Translations under genes and position numbers: made by a program | Source: Teredinibacter turnerae T7901 | GTDB taxonomy: Bacteria; Pseudomonadota; Gammaproteobacteria; Pseudomonadales; Cellvibrionaceae | NCBI RefSeq assembly: GCF_000023025.1 | Contig: NC_012997.1 | Span: forward strand, 3,469,125 to 3,533,124 | Length of the DNA stretch: 64,000 nt | Reading direction: 5' to 3' | In this document: piece after piece, positions 45,581 through 54,354 of the stretch | Layout: each line of letters opens with the position of its first letter | Numbering within the stretch: the first letter of the stretch is position 1 | Notes under the pieces: generated by a model | Databases searched by the model: none | Told to the model about the DNA's origin: nothing | Seen by the model: only the letters and a program-made list of their open reading frames with translations

Positions 45581-47194
45581 TTAAATAAGCACTCCTAAAA
45601 TTCCGGCAACAACCCCGTAAGCCAACATCGCTAACACAGCCCTTTTAATGATATAGCCTTCTTTGTTACCAAGCGCTAGCACCGAGGCCACCGCTACAAT
45701 GTTGTTAATACACACCATATTGCCCATTGCACCGCCAACTGACTGCAACGCCAGTATCGTTGTACGGTCCAACCCAAGGCCAAGCGCGATCGAGTCCTGA
45801 ATGCCACCAAAGGTAAGGTTGGAAATGGTGTTAGAGCCCGAGAAAAACGAGCCCAGCGCACCGAGAAACGGGGCGAAGAACTGCCAGTAGGCGCCGGTTA
45901 GCTCAGCCAGGCTTTGGCCGATCAACGCGACCGCAGACTGTTCGCCCCCCATCATCATCAGGTTAACAAATACCAGTGCGCCCAATAATGCCAGCACCGG
46001 GTTTTGCATTTGCACCAGGGTTTCGGTCACCACCCGACGGCCCTGCCCGCTGCGGTACAGGTACAGGGTGATCAGGCTAATGACTCCAAACGGTATAAAC
46101 GAGGGCACATAAAGAAGGCTGTGGCTCCAGGTTTCCGGCGTATTGAAGATAGACTGCAAAGACACCACGAGTGACGCACTCACAGACAACACCCCCAAAC
46201 TCCCGAGCTCGAGGATCCAGGCGGGCTCTTTTAACAGCAGCAACTCTTTAATCCCCAACTGGGGAATACGAGTAACAATCAGCAGCAACACCGTACCCCA
46301 TAGTGGAAAACTCGCTTTCAGCAGCGCTCCCAACGTTACCTGGGGCCGCGTTGCTTCTCCGTCTCTTTCCTGGCTGTCTCGTTCCTGAAAGTCACGCACA
46401 TTGATGGGGGCTTGCGACAACCCCCAACCCAGGCGGGCGAAAGCGATCGTTAGAACAAGGCCAATGCCACCACCAAGTAACGCAGGAAATTCGTAGCTCA
46501 CAAAAGCGATAGCTACGTAGGGCAGCACGCATGCGAGAATACTTAACACAATAAACACGGCGTTTTGGACTAGCGCCTTGCGATCCACCAGAAACGACAG
46601 CGCAATAAACACCACAACAAACGCCGCTATGCCGTTAATGACTGAGGATTTAATGCCTATCTCAGTTATTTCAGCCGCCGACAAATCAATCGCGGAAAAT
46701 CCAAACCAGGTGGGTGTACCAACCGCACCGAACGACACAGGAACGGTATCCAGAATTAAACATAAAATTGCAACCCGAACTGCGGGGAATCCCAAGCCGA
46801 CTAACACGGGAGCGGCGAGCGCAGCAGGCGTACCGAAACCGCTCGCCCCTTCAATTAGAAACTGAAACGCCCAGCCAACAATCATAAGTTGCGCAATTTT
46901 ATTCTCGGATACCGTGTTTAACCAGGCACGGATAGTCGCTTGCGCACCGGTCACCTCCATAGTACGGAATAAAAATATCGCACCGGCAATGATGACAATA
47001 GGTGTCCAGGCGATCAGCAACCCATCTAACACCGCAGCGTGCACCAGCACCGGATCGCGCGCAAAGACCACCAACATAATGAAATACAGCAGTAACGCGC
47101 ATAGCGGCAGCGCTTTGTACGATGGCATGCTATTTCTGCGGGTCATTAAATAGATGAGAAATACAATCGGGAAATAGGAGAAAAACAACGGCAT
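45581..47194 (-). CDS. lctP: L-lactate permease family transporter
   Basis: A 537-residue inner-membrane carrier of the LctP/LldP family with about 13 hydrophobic segments. GASGFGTPAALAAPVLVGLG, DTVPVSFGAVGTPTWFGF, GALGSFFSGSNTISNLTFG and QSVGGAMGNMVCINNIVA are the family's conserved loops. It imports lactate or glycolate with protons. It is divergent from a D-lactate dehydrogenase gene across 150 bp, which supports a lactate-related role. Together they have been inserted between tsaD and rpsU, which pseudomonads keep adjacent. Confidence 0.93.
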   Translation of the reverse strand: MPLFFSYFPIVFLIYLMTRRNSMPSYKALPLCALLLYFIMLVVFARDPVLVHAAVLDGLLIAWTPIVIIAGAIFLFRTMEVTGAQATIRAWLNTVSENKIAQLMIVGWAFQFLIEGASGFGTPAALAAPVLVGLGFPAVRVAILCLILDTVPVSFGAVGTPTWFGFSAIDLSAAEITEIGIKSSVINGIAAFVVVFIALSFLVDRKALVQNAVFIVLSILACVLPYVAIAFVSYEFPALLGGGIGLVLTIAFARLGWGLSQAPINVRDFQERDSQERDGEATRPQVTLGALLKASFPLWGTVLLLIVTRIPQLGIKELLLLKEPAWILELGSLGVLSVSASLVVSLQSIFNTPETWSHSLLYVPSFIPFGVISLITLYLYRSGQGRRVVTETLVQMQNPVLALLGALVFVNLMMMGGEQSAVALIGQSLAELTGAYWQFFAPFLGALGSFFSGSNTISNLTFGGIQDSIALGLGLDRTTILALQSVGGAMGNMVCINNIVAVASVLALGNKEGYIIKRAVLAMLAYGVVAGILGVLI

Positions 47195-47344: not shown

Positions 47345-48340
47345 ATGAAAGTTGCTGTTTTCAGTTCCAAATCGTACGACATTGAACACTTAAACCAAGC
47401 CAATGAAGGGCGCGGGTTGGAATTTACCTTCTTCGAGCCTCACCTGACGGAACAGACTGCTGTACTCACTAAGGGCTACGATGCGGTTTGCTGTTTCGTG
47501 AACGACGTGATCAATCAGCAGGTCGCAGCAGAGCTCGCCAGTTACGATATCAAGCTTATCGCCATGCGCTGCGCAGGCTTTAACAATGTCGACCTCGAGG
47601 CTTGCGAAAAACACAATTTGCTCGTCGCGCGCGTTCCCGAATACTCACCCAACGCGGTGGCAGAACATGCTGTCGCGCTGATTCTGGACCTGAACCGCAA
47701 CATACACCGCGCTTTCTCACGTATTCGCGAAAACGATTACTCCTTAAGTGGATTAATGGGCTTCGATCTCAACGGTAAAACGGTGTCGATAGTCGGTGGA
47801 GGAAAAATTGGCCAGACGATGATCCGAATCATGCAGGGCTTTGGTTGCCGCGTTTTGTGCTACGACCCCTACCCTTCTGATGCCCTAAAAGAACTCGGCG
47901 CAGAGATAGTTCCCCTGGAAACCGTGTGGGCGGAATCGGATATTATTTCCCTCCACTGCCCGCTGGTTCGCTCCACCTACCATATTGTGAATAGTAACTC
48001 CCTGTCACAAATGAAAAAGGGCGTGATGGTCATCAATACCAGTCGCGGCGGACTCATCGACACTCCGGCAATCATTACCGCCCTGAAGAGCGGCAAAGTA
48101 GGTTACCTCGGCCTGGACGTGTATGAAGAAGAAGCGGAGCTGTTTTTCGAAGACTACTCAGACCAAGTGCTACAGGACGATGTGTTCGCCCGGCTAACCA
48201 CCTTTAAGAATGTTGTCATCACAGGTCATCAGGCATTTTTCACCCATGAAGCCCTGCAGGCAATTGCTGAAGTCACTCTCTCTAACATCGAAAGCTTCGA
48301 GAATAACGAGCTCGATAAGATGTGCCTGGTGAAGGCTTAG
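47345..48340 (+). CDS. ldhA: Fermentative D-lactate dehydrogenase (2-hydroxyacid dehydrogenase)
   Basis: A 331-residue D-isomer-specific 2-hydroxyacid dehydrogenase. The Rossmann motif VGGGKIGQTM, the arginine-bearing NTSRGGLIDTPA, the glutamate in LDVYEEEAE and the catalytic histidine in ITGHQAFFT match LdhA-type D-lactate dehydrogenases, which reduce pyruvate to D-lactate with NADH. GAGG lies 8 nt before the ATG. With the divergent lactate permease it suggests lactate turnover, though the permease family takes L-lactate as well as D-lactate. Confidence 0.92.
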   Translation: MKVAVFSSKSYDIEHLNQANEGRGLEFTFFEPHLTEQTAVLTKGYDAVCCFVNDVINQQVAAELASYDIKLIAMRCAGFNNVDLEACEKHNLLVARVPEYSPNAVAEHAVALILDLNRNIHRAFSRIRENDYSLSGLMGFDLNGKTVSIVGGGKIGQTMIRIMQGFGCRVLCYDPYPSDALKELGAEIVPLETVWAESDIISLHCPLVRSTYHIVNSNSLSQMKKGVMVINTSRGGLIDTPAIITALKSGKVGYLGLDVYEEEAELFFEDYSDQVLQDDVFARLTTFKNVVITGHQAFFTHEALQAIAEVTLSNIESFENNELDKMCLVKA

Positions 48341-49566: not shown

Positions 49567-50508
49567 GTGGTGCAAAGCCTGGGGACACTATCTTTTATGG
49601 TGCATGATCATATAAATGTGGCTATTCAAAGGAATCGGCTACCAGACAACTTTTTCAGCATTGTCGATAATTGGTACCGCCCTCTCGCCGAGGCTGTGGC
49701 GGGCAAGCATCAAGCGCTGGGCAGTACCTTTGTACTGGGCGTTCAGGGCACCCAAGGCAGTGGCAAAAGCACCCTGGCGGACTTTCTCACTGTCATTCTC
49801 TCGACCGATCACCAGCTCAACACGGTCGCACTATCTATCGACGATTTTTATCTCACCCTTGAAGAAAGACTCTCGCTTGCACGCACCGTCCACCCGCTGC
49901 TCAAAACACGTGGTGTGCCGGGTACTCACGACGTTCAGCTTGCGCTAAATACCATTGACCAGCTAAAAGCGCTGAGTTCAGGTCAGAGCCTGTCACTTCC
50001 GCGGTTTAATAAGGCGATAGATGACCGGGAACCGGAGTCCGCCTGGACGCGCGTATCACAACCTGTCGACATTATTATTTTTGAAGGCTGGTGCGTAGGG
50101 ATGCAGTCTCAATCGGAAGATGAACTCACCACATCAGTGAACCGATTGGAAGCGGATGAAGACCCTGACGGTCGTTGGCGACACTATGTCAACCAGGCCC
50201 TGGCCAAAGACTACCACGACCTCTTCAGCCGCTTGAATGCGCTTGCCGTACTCAAAGCCCCCTCCTTCGCCTGTGTCTACGAATGGCGCTTGCTGCAAGA
50301 ACAAAAGCTCGCCGCGTCACTGGCAAACGCCAGTGCAGAAATGAAAAGTAAAATTCTCTCCCCAGAGCAGGTCGAGCGGTTTATCAGCCACTATCAGCGC
50401 TTGACAGAACATGGGCTGCAAACTCTGCCGCAACAGGCGGACTGGACGCTTCATCTCGATCAAAACCACGTCATCACGCAAATGACTCAACGGGACGACT
50501 ATGCTTAA
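49567..50508 (+). CDS. glyK: D-glycerate 3-kinase (plant-type GLYK)
   Basis: About 313 residues of the P-loop kinase fold related to phosphoribulokinase and pantothenate kinase. Walker A is GVQGTQGSGKST (58-69), followed by SIDDFYLT, TRGVPGTHD, LPRFNKAIDDR and IIFEGWCVG, the pattern of GLYK/YggC-type glycerate kinases. It phosphorylates D-glycerate to 3-phosphoglycerate. Its 3' end overlaps the next gene by 8 bp, and the cluster explains its role: glycerate is released by the phosphorylase encoded two genes further on. A GTG start (49567, AAGG 7 nt upstream) is given; the ATG at 49597 is an alternative. Confidence 0.85.
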   Translation: MVQSLGTLSFMVHDHINVAIQRNRLPDNFFSIVDNWYRPLAEAVAGKHQALGSTFVLGVQGTQGSGKSTLADFLTVILSTDHQLNTVALSIDDFYLTLEERLSLARTVHPLLKTRGVPGTHDVQLALNTIDQLKALSSGQSLSLPRFNKAIDDREPESAWTRVSQPVDIIIFEGWCVGMQSQSEDELTTSVNRLEADEDPDGRWRHYVNQALAKDYHDLFSRLNALAVLKAPSFACVYEWRLLQEQKLAASLANASAEMKSKILSPEQVERFISHYQRLTEHGLQTLPQQADWTLHLDQNHVITQMTQRDDYA

Positions 50509-51337
50509 CCCAACGCCTATTGGCACTGAGCCAGTGATCGTTGCTACCGATCTTGACGGCACCCTCCTGGACCACCATGACTATAGCTGGCAGGCCGCAG
50601 CCCCAGCCTTGCAGGCACTTAAGGAAGCAGAGGTTCCAATCATCATCAACACCAGTAAAACCTTCGAGGAGGTGCTTGAGCTGCAAAAGGCTTTGGGAAT
50701 CGTCGAACCGTTTATCGTGGAAAATGGCTCCGGGCTTTTCTTACCCGTGAACACCTATCCCCAACCTGATACCCGGCCTGAACAAGTTGCAGGCTTCTGG
50801 CAGTGCACACTGGGCTCGGATCGCGAGGCCATTGTTGCGCGTTTGCACGAATTGCGCGAAGCCAACGGCTGGCAGTTCAGCGGCTTCGCAGACATGACGC
50901 TGACAGACCTTATCCAGCACACAGGTCTGCCCGAGGAGAACGCACGTAAAGCCATGAAGCGTCGCTTTTCCGAACCCCTGGTCTGGAAAGATACAGACGC
51001 GGCATTTGCAGAATTTAAGGCTCAGCTTGAAGCGGAGGGCTACCGTATTTTAAAAGGTGGCCGATTTGTACATGTGTTAGGCGATACCGACAAAGGCTAT
51101 GCCGTCACCCGATTCGCAGACATTTTTGCCACGAACGGCGAGACCTTTCCAAAAATAATCGCGTTGGGCGACAGCCCCAACGATATCGAGATGCTTCAGG
51201 TTGCCGATTATGCTGTGCTGGTGCGATCACCGGTACAAAACTTCCCCGAATTTAACAGTAAAGGCGTTCAGATACGTACGAGCGCCTTCGGACCAGAAGG
51301 CTGGAACGAAGCAATTCAGTCTTTATTACAACATTAG
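50501..51337 (+). CDS. gpgP: Glucosyl/mannosyl-3-phosphoglycerate phosphatase (HAD, MPGP family)
   Basis: A 278-residue HAD phosphatase: nucleophile Asp17 and acid Asp19 in VATDLDGTLLD, the INTSKTFEEV motif II, a C2-type cap domain in the middle, and the metal-binding ALGDSPNDIEML near residue 228. The family (MPGP, YedP-like) removes phosphate from mannosyl- or glucosyl-3-phosphoglycerate. The synthase next door is of the glucosyl type, so the substrate is probably glucosyl-3-phosphoglycerate and the product glucosylglycerate, a compatible solute. Confidence 0.88.
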   Translation: MLNPTPIGTEPVIVATDLDGTLLDHHDYSWQAAAPALQALKEAEVPIIINTSKTFEEVLELQKALGIVEPFIVENGSGLFLPVNTYPQPDTRPEQVAGFWQCTLGSDREAIVARLHELREANGWQFSGFADMTLTDLIQHTGLPEENARKAMKRRFSEPLVWKDTDAAFAEFKAQLEAEGYRILKGGRFVHVLGDTDKGYAVTRFADIFATNGETFPKIIALGDSPNDIEMLQVADYAVLVRSPVQNFPEFNSKGVQIRTSAFGPEGWNEAIQSLLQH

Positions 51338-51363
51338 AAATAAGGTAGAAACAGGATATTCCT

Positions 51364-52587
51364 ATGGCCGATTTTTATCAGAACGGGATAATCACCACAC
51401 TTCACAACCTCAAGCAGAGACCACTCGAGGCCATGGAAGATGAACTTCGTGAATTTTCCAAAACCCGCCCCATGGGACTGGTATTGCCTTCGCTATTCTC
51501 CGAGCTCGAGGGTGACGCGCTCCCCAATATTGTCAACGAACTCAGTAAAGTCGACTACCTTTCCGAAATCATCATTGGTTTGGACCGTGCCGACGAAAAC
51601 CAATACCGGCATGCACTGCAATTTTTCAAACCGCTGAATCAGAACTTTAAAATTCTCTGGAACGACGGCCCGAGACTGCAGGCCGTCGATAAAAAACTGC
51701 GCGAAGAGGGGCTTGCCCCGCTAGAACCTGGCAAAGGGCGCAACGTTTGGTTTTGCCTCGGTTACTCACTTTCGAGCGGTAAAACCGAATCTATTGCTCT
51801 ACACGACTGCGACATCGTAACCTACGATCGCAGCATGCTGGCGCGCCTGCTCTACCCTGTAGCCAACCCCGCGTTCAACTACGAATTCTGTAAAGGATAT
51901 TACGCGCGCGTCGCCAGCGGGAAAATACACGGCAGAGTAAGTCGGCTCTTGGTAACGCCACTTATCCGCGCGCTGAAGAAAACACTCGGCCACAATGACT
52001 ACCTGGACTATATCGACAGTTTTCGCTACCCACTCGCAGGCGAGTTCAGTTTTCGGCACGATGTAATCAGCGATATCCGCATTCCCAGCGACTGGGGCCT
52101 GGAGATCGGTGTTCTGTCAGAGGTGCACCGCAACTTCGCCAACAACCGGCTGTGTCAGGCAGATATTGCTGACAACTATGACCACAAGCACCAGGAGCTT
52201 TCACCTGAAGATGCCGCCCGTGGACTTTCTAAGATGTCGATTGACATCTCCAAAGCCCTGTTCCGTAAATTAGCGACCAATGGAGTGGTATTTAACACGG
52301 AAACTTTTCGCTCTATTAAAGCGACCTATTTTCGAATCGCATTGGATTTTATTGAAACTTACGACAACGACGCGCGCATGAACGGTCTTAAACTGGACGT
52401 TCATTCCGAAGAGCAGGCGGTAGAGATGTTCGCAAAAAATATTCTGGCGGCGGGCCACAACTTTCTGGACAACCCCATGGAAAAACCGTTTATGCCCTGC
52501 TGGAATCGGGTAATCAGCGCTATCCCCAATATCTTGCACGACATCAATCAGGCTGTAACTGACGACATGGAAGAGTTCGGCAAATAA
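51364..52587 (+). CDS. gpgS: Glucosyl-3-phosphoglycerate synthase (GT81)
   Basis: A 407-residue retaining glycosyltransferase with a GT-A fold. VLPSLFSELE, IIIGLDRAD, GKGRNVWFCLGY, and the metal-binding Asp148-Cys-Asp150 in ALHDCDIVTYD, then GEFSFRHDV and DWGLEIGVLSEV, fit GpgS of family GT81. It transfers glucose from an NDP-glucose to 3-phosphoglycerate. It sits 26 bp after the phosphatase. Together they make glucosylglycerate, usually accumulated under salt stress or nitrogen limitation. Confidence 0.9.
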   Translation: MADFYQNGIITTLHNLKQRPLEAMEDELREFSKTRPMGLVLPSLFSELEGDALPNIVNELSKVDYLSEIIIGLDRADENQYRHALQFFKPLNQNFKILWNDGPRLQAVDKKLREEGLAPLEPGKGRNVWFCLGYSLSSGKTESIALHDCDIVTYDRSMLARLLYPVANPAFNYEFCKGYYARVASGKIHGRVSRLLVTPLIRALKKTLGHNDYLDYIDSFRYPLAGEFSFRHDVISDIRIPSDWGLEIGVLSEVHRNFANNRLCQADIADNYDHKHQELSPEDAARGLSKMSIDISKALFRKLATNGVVFNTETFRSIKATYFRIALDFIETYDNDARMNGLKLDVHSEEQAVEMFAKNILAAGHNFLDNPMEKPFMPCWNRVISAIPNILHDINQAVTDDMEEFGK

Positions 52588-52608
52588 ATAAGAGGTGAAA
52601 ATTCACAT

Positions 52609-54354
52609 ATGACCGACGCCATACAAAAAGAACTCAAGTTCCTGGTTGAAAGCCACCTGTCATTCATTTATCCAAATGCTGACAACGGTGAACTCGCAGA
52701 CCGCCTGATGGCGATTATGGAGCTGGATGGATCCTGCATGAAGCCAGGCGTGCATGCGAATAGCTGGAGTCAGAAAGATATTTTCACCATCACCTATGGT
52801 GACAGTATTCGCCGTGATGGTGAGGAACCATTGGAAACCCTGCACACGTTTTTTAATGAGCGGCTGAAAGACGTGGTAAGTGGTATCCACATATTGCCGT
52901 TTTTCCCTTACAGCTCAGACGATGGCTTTTCGGTTATTGACTATACGCGGGTTAACGATGCTATCGGCGAATGGGAACATATTGTCGAAATTGGCAAAGA
53001 ATACAACCTCATGGCGGATTTGGTTATCAACCACTGTTCGAGCCGTAGCGGCTGGTTCGACAATTTTAAACAGCGCAAGTCCCCAGGCGCCGACTATTTT
53101 ATCGAAACCGACCCTAATACCGATCTCTCTGAGGTTGTTCGGCCACGAACCACACCACTGTTACGCGAAGTAGAAACTCTGAACGGCAAACGCCATGTGT
53201 GGTGTACTTTCAGTCCAGACCAGGTTGATCTCAACTTCGCTAATCCCGAAGTTGTGTGTGAAATGGTCGGCATCATTAAATTGTACCTGGACCGTGGCGT
53301 ACGCACTTTCCGCCTGGACGCTGTTGCATTTCTATGGAAGGAAATTGGCACGAGCTGCATCAATCACCCCAAGACCCATGAATTCGTCCGCCTGTTCCGT
53401 ACTTTGATTGAGCACCACTCACCCGATGCCATCATAATTACCGAAACGAACGTTCCCAATCACGAGAACCTCTCCTATTTCGGCAACGCCAACGAAGCCC
53501 ACGCGGTCTACAATTTTTCCCTCCCTCCGTTGTTAGTTAACGCGTTGGTAACGGGGAATAGCAACCACTTAAAGATGTGGCAGATGAGTATGCCACCAGC
53601 GCAGATGGGTACCTTCTTCCTTAATTTCATCGCCTCTCACGACGGAATTGGCCTGCGTCCGGCCGAGGGTTTGCTCAACGAAGAGGAAATCGATGCGCTC
53701 GCAAACACCATGCAGAATTTCGGTGCGCGCATCTCCTGGCGAACTGCGGAAGGGGGTAGGCCTAAGCCCTACGAAATTAACGTGACCTTGTTCGACGCTT
53801 TGCAAGGTACCGTGCGGGGGCCAGACAAGTGGCAAATAGAGCGATTTATTTGTGCGCACGGCATTATGTTTTCGCTCGAAGGCGTGCCAGCCATTTACAT
53901 CCACAGCTTTCTGGCCACCAACAATTACAGTGAGGGTGTCGATCTCACCAATCACAACCGCACAATCAACCGCTATAAATGGGATTACGACGAACTTTGC
54001 GAGAAACTGGACGACGGCTACAGCCATCATTGCAAAGTGTTGCAGCGCATGCGTGAGCTACTGGCCATTCGGATTAAACAGCCGGCATTTCATCCAAATG
54101 CTACTCAGTTTACCTTGCATCTGGGCGAACAGGTATTTGGCTTTTGGCGACAGAGTCTGAAGCGTGATCAGAGCATTTTCTGTATTCACAATATTAGCGA
54201 TACCGAAGTTGCCATACCCCTCTCGTCGATCAACTTGATCAGCCTAAACACTTGGGAAGACTTGGTGAGCGGTGAAAAGTACACCGATTTGCATAAAGAT
54301 CTGGTGCTTGGGCCCTATGACTTCGTTTGGCTTACCAACAAACCCGGGGTGTAA
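52609..54354 (+). CDS. GH13_18 glycoside phosphorylase, probably glucosylglycerate phosphorylase
   Basis: A 581-residue sucrose-phosphorylase-family enzyme. The catalytic nucleophile is Asp237 (FRLDAVAFLWK), the acid/base Glu279 (IITETNVPNHEN), and the transition-state stabiliser Asp345 (ASHDGIGLRP). The family includes sucrose, sucrose-6'-phosphate and glucosylglycerate phosphorylases. Immediate linkage to gpgS, gpgP and a glycerate kinase points to glucosylglycerate plus phosphate giving glucose 1-phosphate and D-glycerate, as for E. coli YcjM-type enzymes. No sucrose genes are nearby. It is the last gene of the four-gene string and is 22 bp after gpgS. Confidence 0.85.
   Translation: MTDAIQKELKFLVESHLSFIYPNADNGELADRLMAIMELDGSCMKPGVHANSWSQKDIFTITYGDSIRRDGEEPLETLHTFFNERLKDVVSGIHILPFFPYSSDDGFSVIDYTRVNDAIGEWEHIVEIGKEYNLMADLVINHCSSRSGWFDNFKQRKSPGADYFIETDPNTDLSEVVRPRTTPLLREVETLNGKRHVWCTFSPDQVDLNFANPEVVCEMVGIIKLYLDRGVRTFRLDAVAFLWKEIGTSCINHPKTHEFVRLFRTLIEHHSPDAIIITETNVPNHENLSYFGNANEAHAVYNFSLPPLLVNALVTGNSNHLKMWQMSMPPAQMGTFFLNFIASHDGIGLRPAEGLLNEEEIDALANTMQNFGARISWRTAEGGRPKPYEINVTLFDALQGTVRGPDKWQIERFICAHGIMFSLEGVPAIYIHSFLATNNYSEGVDLTNHNRTINRYKWDYDELCEKLDDGYSHHCKVLQRMRELLAIRIKQPAFHPNATQFTLHLGEQVFGFWRQSLKRDQSIFCIHNISDTEVAIPLSSINLISLNTWEDLVSGEKYTDLHKDLVLGPYDFVWLTNKPGV

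Follow-up and report, generated by a model that had tools for sequence, protein, structure and literature searches.

A one-operon gene cassette predicted to make and salvage glucosylglycerate in Teredinibacter turnerae T7901

A run of four genes at the locus

The window analysed here is a stretch of 64,000 nucleotides from the shipworm symbiont Teredinibacter turnerae T7901 (NC_012997.1, positions 3,469,125 to 3,533,124). At 49567–54354 on its forward strand lies a run of four genes which, judged by sequence comparison, very probably constitutes a one-operon cassette for the synthesis and salvage of glucosylglycerate (GG). Along the DNA, the kinase gene comes first, followed by those for the phosphatase, the synthase and the phosphorylase (Table 1). 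The original prediction of four adjacent genes of these families was confirmed by the open reading frames, Pfam and NCBIfam profiles and sequence searches of the PDB. Its membership list stands; the genes had been listed there in pathway order, whereas the order on the DNA starts with the kinase. The kinase and phosphatase frames overlap by 8 bp and a 26-bp gap separates phosphatase and synthase, both as predicted, while the gap between synthase and phosphorylase measures 21 bp by the frame coordinates and not 22 bp. Catalytic residues had been described as intact in all four products, and the motifs are indeed conserved across the aligned relatives.

Table 1. Genes of the putative GG cassette and the evidence for their names.
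Product	Coordinates	Strand	Evidence
D-glycerate 3-kinase (GLYK-like, PRK/uridine-kinase superfamily), predicted	49567–50508	+	PDB relatives, PF00485, motifs
Glucosyl-3-phosphoglycerate phosphatase (HAD-IIB, MPGP family), predicted	50501–51337	+	TIGR01486, PDB relatives, HAD motifs
Glucosyl-3-phosphoglycerate synthase (GpgS, GT81-like), predicted	51364–52587	+	NCBIfam NF040724, PDB match, DxD
GH13_18 glucosylglycerate phosphorylase (GGaP), predicted	52609–54354	+	YcjM identity, signatures, tree

Since the four genes share one direction and are separated by no more than 26 bp, they are probably co-transcribed. An Rfam scan of the window returned no matches at gathering scores. Promoter-like matches between 49380 and 54500 numbered 4, against a mean of 4.6 in shuffled sequence, and no promoter is therefore claimed for this region.

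The kinase is a predicted D-glycerate 3-kinase of the GLYK type, nearest to known GLYK among the PRK-type P-loop kinases. This assignment is supported by its best PDB sequence matches, 6ckg (E 1.2e-20) and 7xpc (E 1e-19), both named D-glycerate 3-kinase; uridine-cytidine kinases trail these structures (E 1.5e-6), and the Pfam match to PF00485 (PRK) is barely above the cut-off (23.1 versus 22 bits). The Walker A motif GxQGxGKxT and the SxDDxY motif are kept in 79–80 of 81 aligned rows. With 6ckg and 7xpc, and also with 1odf, the protein shares the P-loop PRK-like kinase type and Walker A; it differs in being encoded by a bacterial gene within a GG operon, and the match is moderate. The three solved kinases are of the plant or fungal type. 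In the alignment, similarity of the relatives begins near residue 11, which makes ATG 49597 a likelier start than GTG 49567. A similarity search of the T. turnerae genome with the kinase protein matched only the protein itself, and searches of the same genome for PF02595 and PF13660 glycerate kinases found none; the predicted kinase is the only glycerate kinase found there.

The phosphatase passes the NCBIfam model TIGR01486 (243.6 bits, cut-off 164.75), matches the MPGP equivalog models with scores under their cut-offs, and resembles the solved structures 1xvi, 3ztw and 1wzc in PDB sequence searches. Asp-17, Asp-19, the SKT motif (residues 52–54) and Lys-198 are present in all 117 aligned rows and GDxxND (residues 223–228) in 115. 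These data support membership of the MPGP/GpgP family, with glucosyl-3-phosphoglycerate as the predicted substrate. For the synthase, a Pfam search gave no hits and its name comes from NCBIfam and PDB alone: NF040724 (GpgS) and a weak match to the GpgS structures 7p5l and 7pdo (E 1.9e-5). Its DxD motif, Asp-148–Cys-149–Asp-150, is conserved in 116–117 of 119 rows. The synthase and phosphatase families are those of the two-step GpgS/GpgP route (NF040724; structure 7p5l) and are adjacent in both; the differences here are the linkage to a phosphorylase and a kinase and a synthase score under the equivalog cut-off.

The name of the phosphatase family, taken from mannosyl-3-phosphoglycerate, raises the question of whether the sugar is mannose, or whether GG is a precursor of a larger solute such as mannosylglucosylglycerate or a diglucosyl form. 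Mannosylglucosylglycerate is reported as a main solute of Rhodopirellula baltica (PMC3694870). Against these possibilities, which we regard as very improbable, the synthase matches GpgS models, the phosphorylase bears GG-specific signatures (see below), and the four-gene run contains no further glycosyltransferase, the rest of the genome not having been searched for such enzymes.

Specificity of the phosphorylase

GGaP is recognisable by a (T/S)ETN motif on strand β5 and by a Glu in loop A where most other clades have Gln, according to the relevant section of a 2020 review (PMC7178133), and the same signs, written as PYELN and TETN, appear in a 2023 paper (PMC10608839). The window phosphorylase has TETN at residues 278–281 and the loop A sequence PYEIN with Glu-389. 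The distribution of these features was followed in an alignment of 126 rows, comprising the window protein, 119 loci of relatives (three of them duplicates of others), E. coli YcjM, two plasmid homologues and three sucrose phosphorylases. The (T/S)ETN motif occurs in all 123 GGaP-like rows (118 TETN, 5 SETN) and in none of the three sucrose phosphorylases; the loop A residue is Glu in the same 123 rows and Gln in the three sucrose phosphorylases. The catalytic triad, Asp-237, Glu-279 and Asp-345, is kept in all 126 rows.

The window protein thus carries the features common to the characterised GGaP enzymes (EC 2.4.1.352) of Meiothermus silvanus, Spirochaeta thermophila and E. coli (YcjM), namely the GH13_18 subfamily, (T/S)ETN and the loop A Glu, as far as the review describes them (PMC7178133). 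GGoP (7xdq) and sucrose phosphorylase also belong to GH13_18, and the triad is common to the three sucrose phosphorylases compared. Their loop A reads VGAIYQ or N(L/V)D(I/L/V)YQ in the same portion of the review (PMC7178133), whereas the window protein has PYEIN. Identity between the window phosphorylase and YcjM is 44% over the tblastn segment and 39% in the multiple alignment. In a tree built from 41 of the 126 rows, 38 GGaP-like rows including the window protein and YcjM lie opposite the three sucrose phosphorylases across a branch with 100/100 support. YcjM is the sole characterised GGaP in this tree, which was built without the M. silvanus, S. thermophila, GGoP, SPP and XpGP enzymes. Nothing beyond the split between GGaP and sucrose phosphorylase is drawn from it, because the Enterococcus row sits on a long branch, the composition of two rows is unusual, and good support is limited to 18 of the 38 inner branches.

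The competing view is that the enzyme is a sucrose phosphorylase, or an XpGP-like mixed enzyme active on sucrose, which stands beside GG genes by chance. The nearest NCBIfam model is in fact the sucrose phosphorylase model TIGR03852 (E 2e-59), and a sucrose-active GG phosphorylase is reported in GH13_18 (PMC11009771). The score against TIGR03852, however, is about 201.4–201.8 bits, well under the cut-off of 334.4, loop A reads PYEIN where sucrose phosphorylases have DxYQ, and a second GH13_18-like gene in the same genome passes this model at 450 bits and has the sucrose phosphorylase-type loop SNVDLYQ. Together with the GGaP signatures and the 100/100 split, these results led us to reject the identification as sucrose phosphorylase; the alignment and tree, which lack XpGP, bear on sucrose phosphorylase and not on an XpGP-like side activity. 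Overall, the sucrose reading appears highly unlikely. Clustering with sucrose phosphorylases had been named in the original prediction as the outcome that would overturn it, and it did not occur. The assignment of the product as GGaP, predicted to phosphorolyse GG, is well supported.

The separate sucrose phosphorylase gene (L002:1282–2793) lies some 170 kb downstream of the GG genes and adjoins MFS transporter-like and ROK sugar kinase-like open reading frames, named by eye from their translations. A plasmid collection contained 566 records with a phosphorylase match, all under 60% identity, and many of the 40 matches listed are sucrose phosphorylase or trehalose synthase genes. Two plasmid genes are GGaP-like: one from an Enterobacter conjugative plasmid (L171) is placed near YcjM in the tree and one from a Vibrio plasmid (L172) near L084. 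Viral contigs yielded no confirmed phosphorylase relatives; a single pattern match was unconfirmed by tblastn.

Co-occurrence and gene order in relatives

Co-occurrence was examined in 58 related genomes, T. turnerae included, with a strong phosphorylase relative defined as a best match of at least 505 bits. Weaker GH13 matches (178 bits or less) were excluded; with them, 43 genomes had a match. A strong phosphorylase relative was present in 39 genomes and the synthase in 39, the two sets being identical, and the remaining 19 had neither. That the phosphorylase accompanies GpgS in 39 of 39 genomes also argues against a sucrose-active enzyme placed there by chance. The 38 other positive genomes all keep phosphatase and synthase side by side (in G047 on a contig separate from the phosphorylase), and in 29 of them the kinase is next to this pair.

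Broader sampling gave a similar layout. The named loci are the best 80 of 568 confirmed ones and are biased to near relatives, with hosts that include Marinobacter, Alteromonas, Colwellia, Marinomonas, Pseudoalteromonas and Vibrio. All four genes are present in 51 of the 80, the kinase is missing from 27 (in one of these, L133, the contig start is too close to show a full kinase), and two, at contig ends, have synthase and phosphorylase only. After removal of the three duplicates, and with the window uncounted, 116 distinct phosphorylase loci remained. The window order is found in 71; in one of these, L079, about 5 kb lie between the phosphorylase and the other genes. The kinase is lacking from 33, the phosphorylase gene runs on the opposite strand in 8, and 4 have other layouts. 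The four-gene set is widespread among the Gammaproteobacteria sampled, and the gene pairing is widespread in marine bacteria. Retention of the set across many genera indicates more than chance.

In the eight opposite-strand loci (L072, L073, L075, L077, L080, L081, L082 and L083) the gene set has another regulatory layout. The phosphorylase is arranged tail-to-tail with the synthase end in six of them (about 11 kb apart in one) and head-to-head in two. The kinase remains with phosphatase and synthase in six and is absent from two. A single open frame spans kinase and phosphatase, apparently as a fusion, in 6 of the 80 kinase-bearing loci (two of the 80 being duplicates). One of the six is from the same genus as T. 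turnerae, and sequencing error could also account for these single-frame loci. The apparent fusions, of about 574–658 residues, are those of L052, L080, L085, L155, L157 and L160, and L170:4018–5760. The seventh fusion comes from a Pseudoalteromonas donghaensis plasmid record and is annotated as a 580-residue protein, with a kinase-like part at 45–271 and the phosphatase at 299–564. A narrow search of open-licence literature for mannosyl-3-phosphoglycerate phosphatase together with glycerate kinase found nothing, and the fusion may be published elsewhere.

Upstream of the cassette, a lactate permease family gene (45581–47194, minus strand) and a gene for a D-2-hydroxyacid (D-lactate-like) dehydrogenase (47345–48340, plus strand) form a divergent pair. 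The best NCBIfam models for the dehydrogenase are D-lactate dehydrogenases, with scores under their cut-offs. It was considered as a source of D-glycerate and dropped, given these models, the permease neighbour and a linkage to the cassette restricted to the genus: it is near the cassette in seven same-genus loci and in none of 33 loci of other relatives, some of which are short. The gene was left out of the set because of this restriction.

A probable cycle of GG synthesis and phosphorolytic recovery

The four predicted activities would form a cycle. GpgS would couple NDP-glucose with 3-phosphoglycerate, and the HAD phosphatase would then yield GG, a compatible solute that may serve as an osmolyte tuned to salinity. 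The buffered osmolyte or carbon store suggested in the original prediction is a possible physiological role. With phosphate as co-substrate, GGaP would cleave GG to glucose 1-phosphate and D-glycerate, presumably in this direction in the cell, and the kinase would convert D-glycerate to 3-phosphoglycerate, which could return to GpgS or enter glycolysis. The biochemical reading first proposed, of making, splitting and re-phosphorylating, is well supported by the comparisons above. If synthesis and breakdown genes are co-transcribed, as is probable, the direction of flux is presumably governed at the enzyme level, by salt or phosphate, and such control of the loop is expected.

Phosphorolysis retains glucose as glucose 1-phosphate and saves one ATP relative to hydrolysis. 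A full turn with UDP-glucose as the donor costs one UTP and one ATP (UTP + ATP + H2O → UDP + PPi + ADP), and a loop running idle burns energy. The earlier statement that the energy of the glucosyl bond is kept holds for the phosphorolysis step alone; it fails for a full turn, which spends nucleotide triphosphates.

Several observations weigh against the synthesis-and-salvage operon. The synthase scores 371 bits (E 4.8e-111) against NF040724, under the equivalog cut-off of 700. The 24 kb around E. coli ycjM contain ABC-transporter and other sugar genes and no GpgS, in contrast to the four genes found together here, so that GGaP alone is no proof of GG synthesis. The 58 genomes are related; the 39 positives are therefore not independent events and a Fisher p-value overstates their independence. 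Nine of the 38 other positive genomes lack the kinase next to the cassette, and local closure of the loop is accordingly not universal. Four of these nine have an orthologue elsewhere, two a PF02595 kinase and two a PF13660 kinase (the PF13660 search covered the last three kinase-less genomes and that of T. turnerae), and searches of G032 for a kinase orthologue, PF02595 and PF13660 found no glycerate kinase. Finally, with the phosphorylase on the other strand in 8 of 116 loci, a single operon for all four genes is not universal either.

The fusions and opposite-strand loci tie the kinase to the pathway and hint that it serves acceptor recycling. They could also be taken to mean that the kinase mainly feeds synthesis with D-glycerate from elsewhere and that GGaP is a side valve, in a glycerate-driven synthesis and not a salvage cycle: the kinase shares an open frame with the biosynthetic phosphatase in the six fused loci, and it keeps company with synthase and phosphatase in six of the eight loci in which the phosphorylase is turned around. 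We consider this unlikely, as central metabolism already provides 3-phosphoglycerate and GGaP itself would yield D-glycerate, so that no other source is needed. A further, doubtful possibility is that the kinase is bound to synthesis and not to salvage in a permanently turning GG loop, with a kinase-phosphatase unit recycling the acceptor at once. If true, the size of the GG pool would depend on how synthesis and phosphorolysis balance, which would make it a fast, salt-responsive store.

With the salvage cassette as the favoured reading, the finding is real but ordinary, the gene pairing being already in the literature. GGaP genes are frequently accompanied by genes for glycerate kinase, GpgS or GpgP, and specificity has been derived from this context, as set out in the GGaP portion of the 2020 review (PMC7178133); the locus is hence a good fresh example of a described association. 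It is also a clean and complete case, in which the predicted genes for GG synthesis and phosphorolytic recovery stand in one run. The same portion of the review describes the metabolic function of GGaP as not yet experimentally confirmed as of 2020 (PMC7178133). With the four genes side by side, no second glycerate kinase found and a sucrose phosphorylase gene elsewhere in the genome, T. turnerae would be a suitable bacterium in which to test that function.

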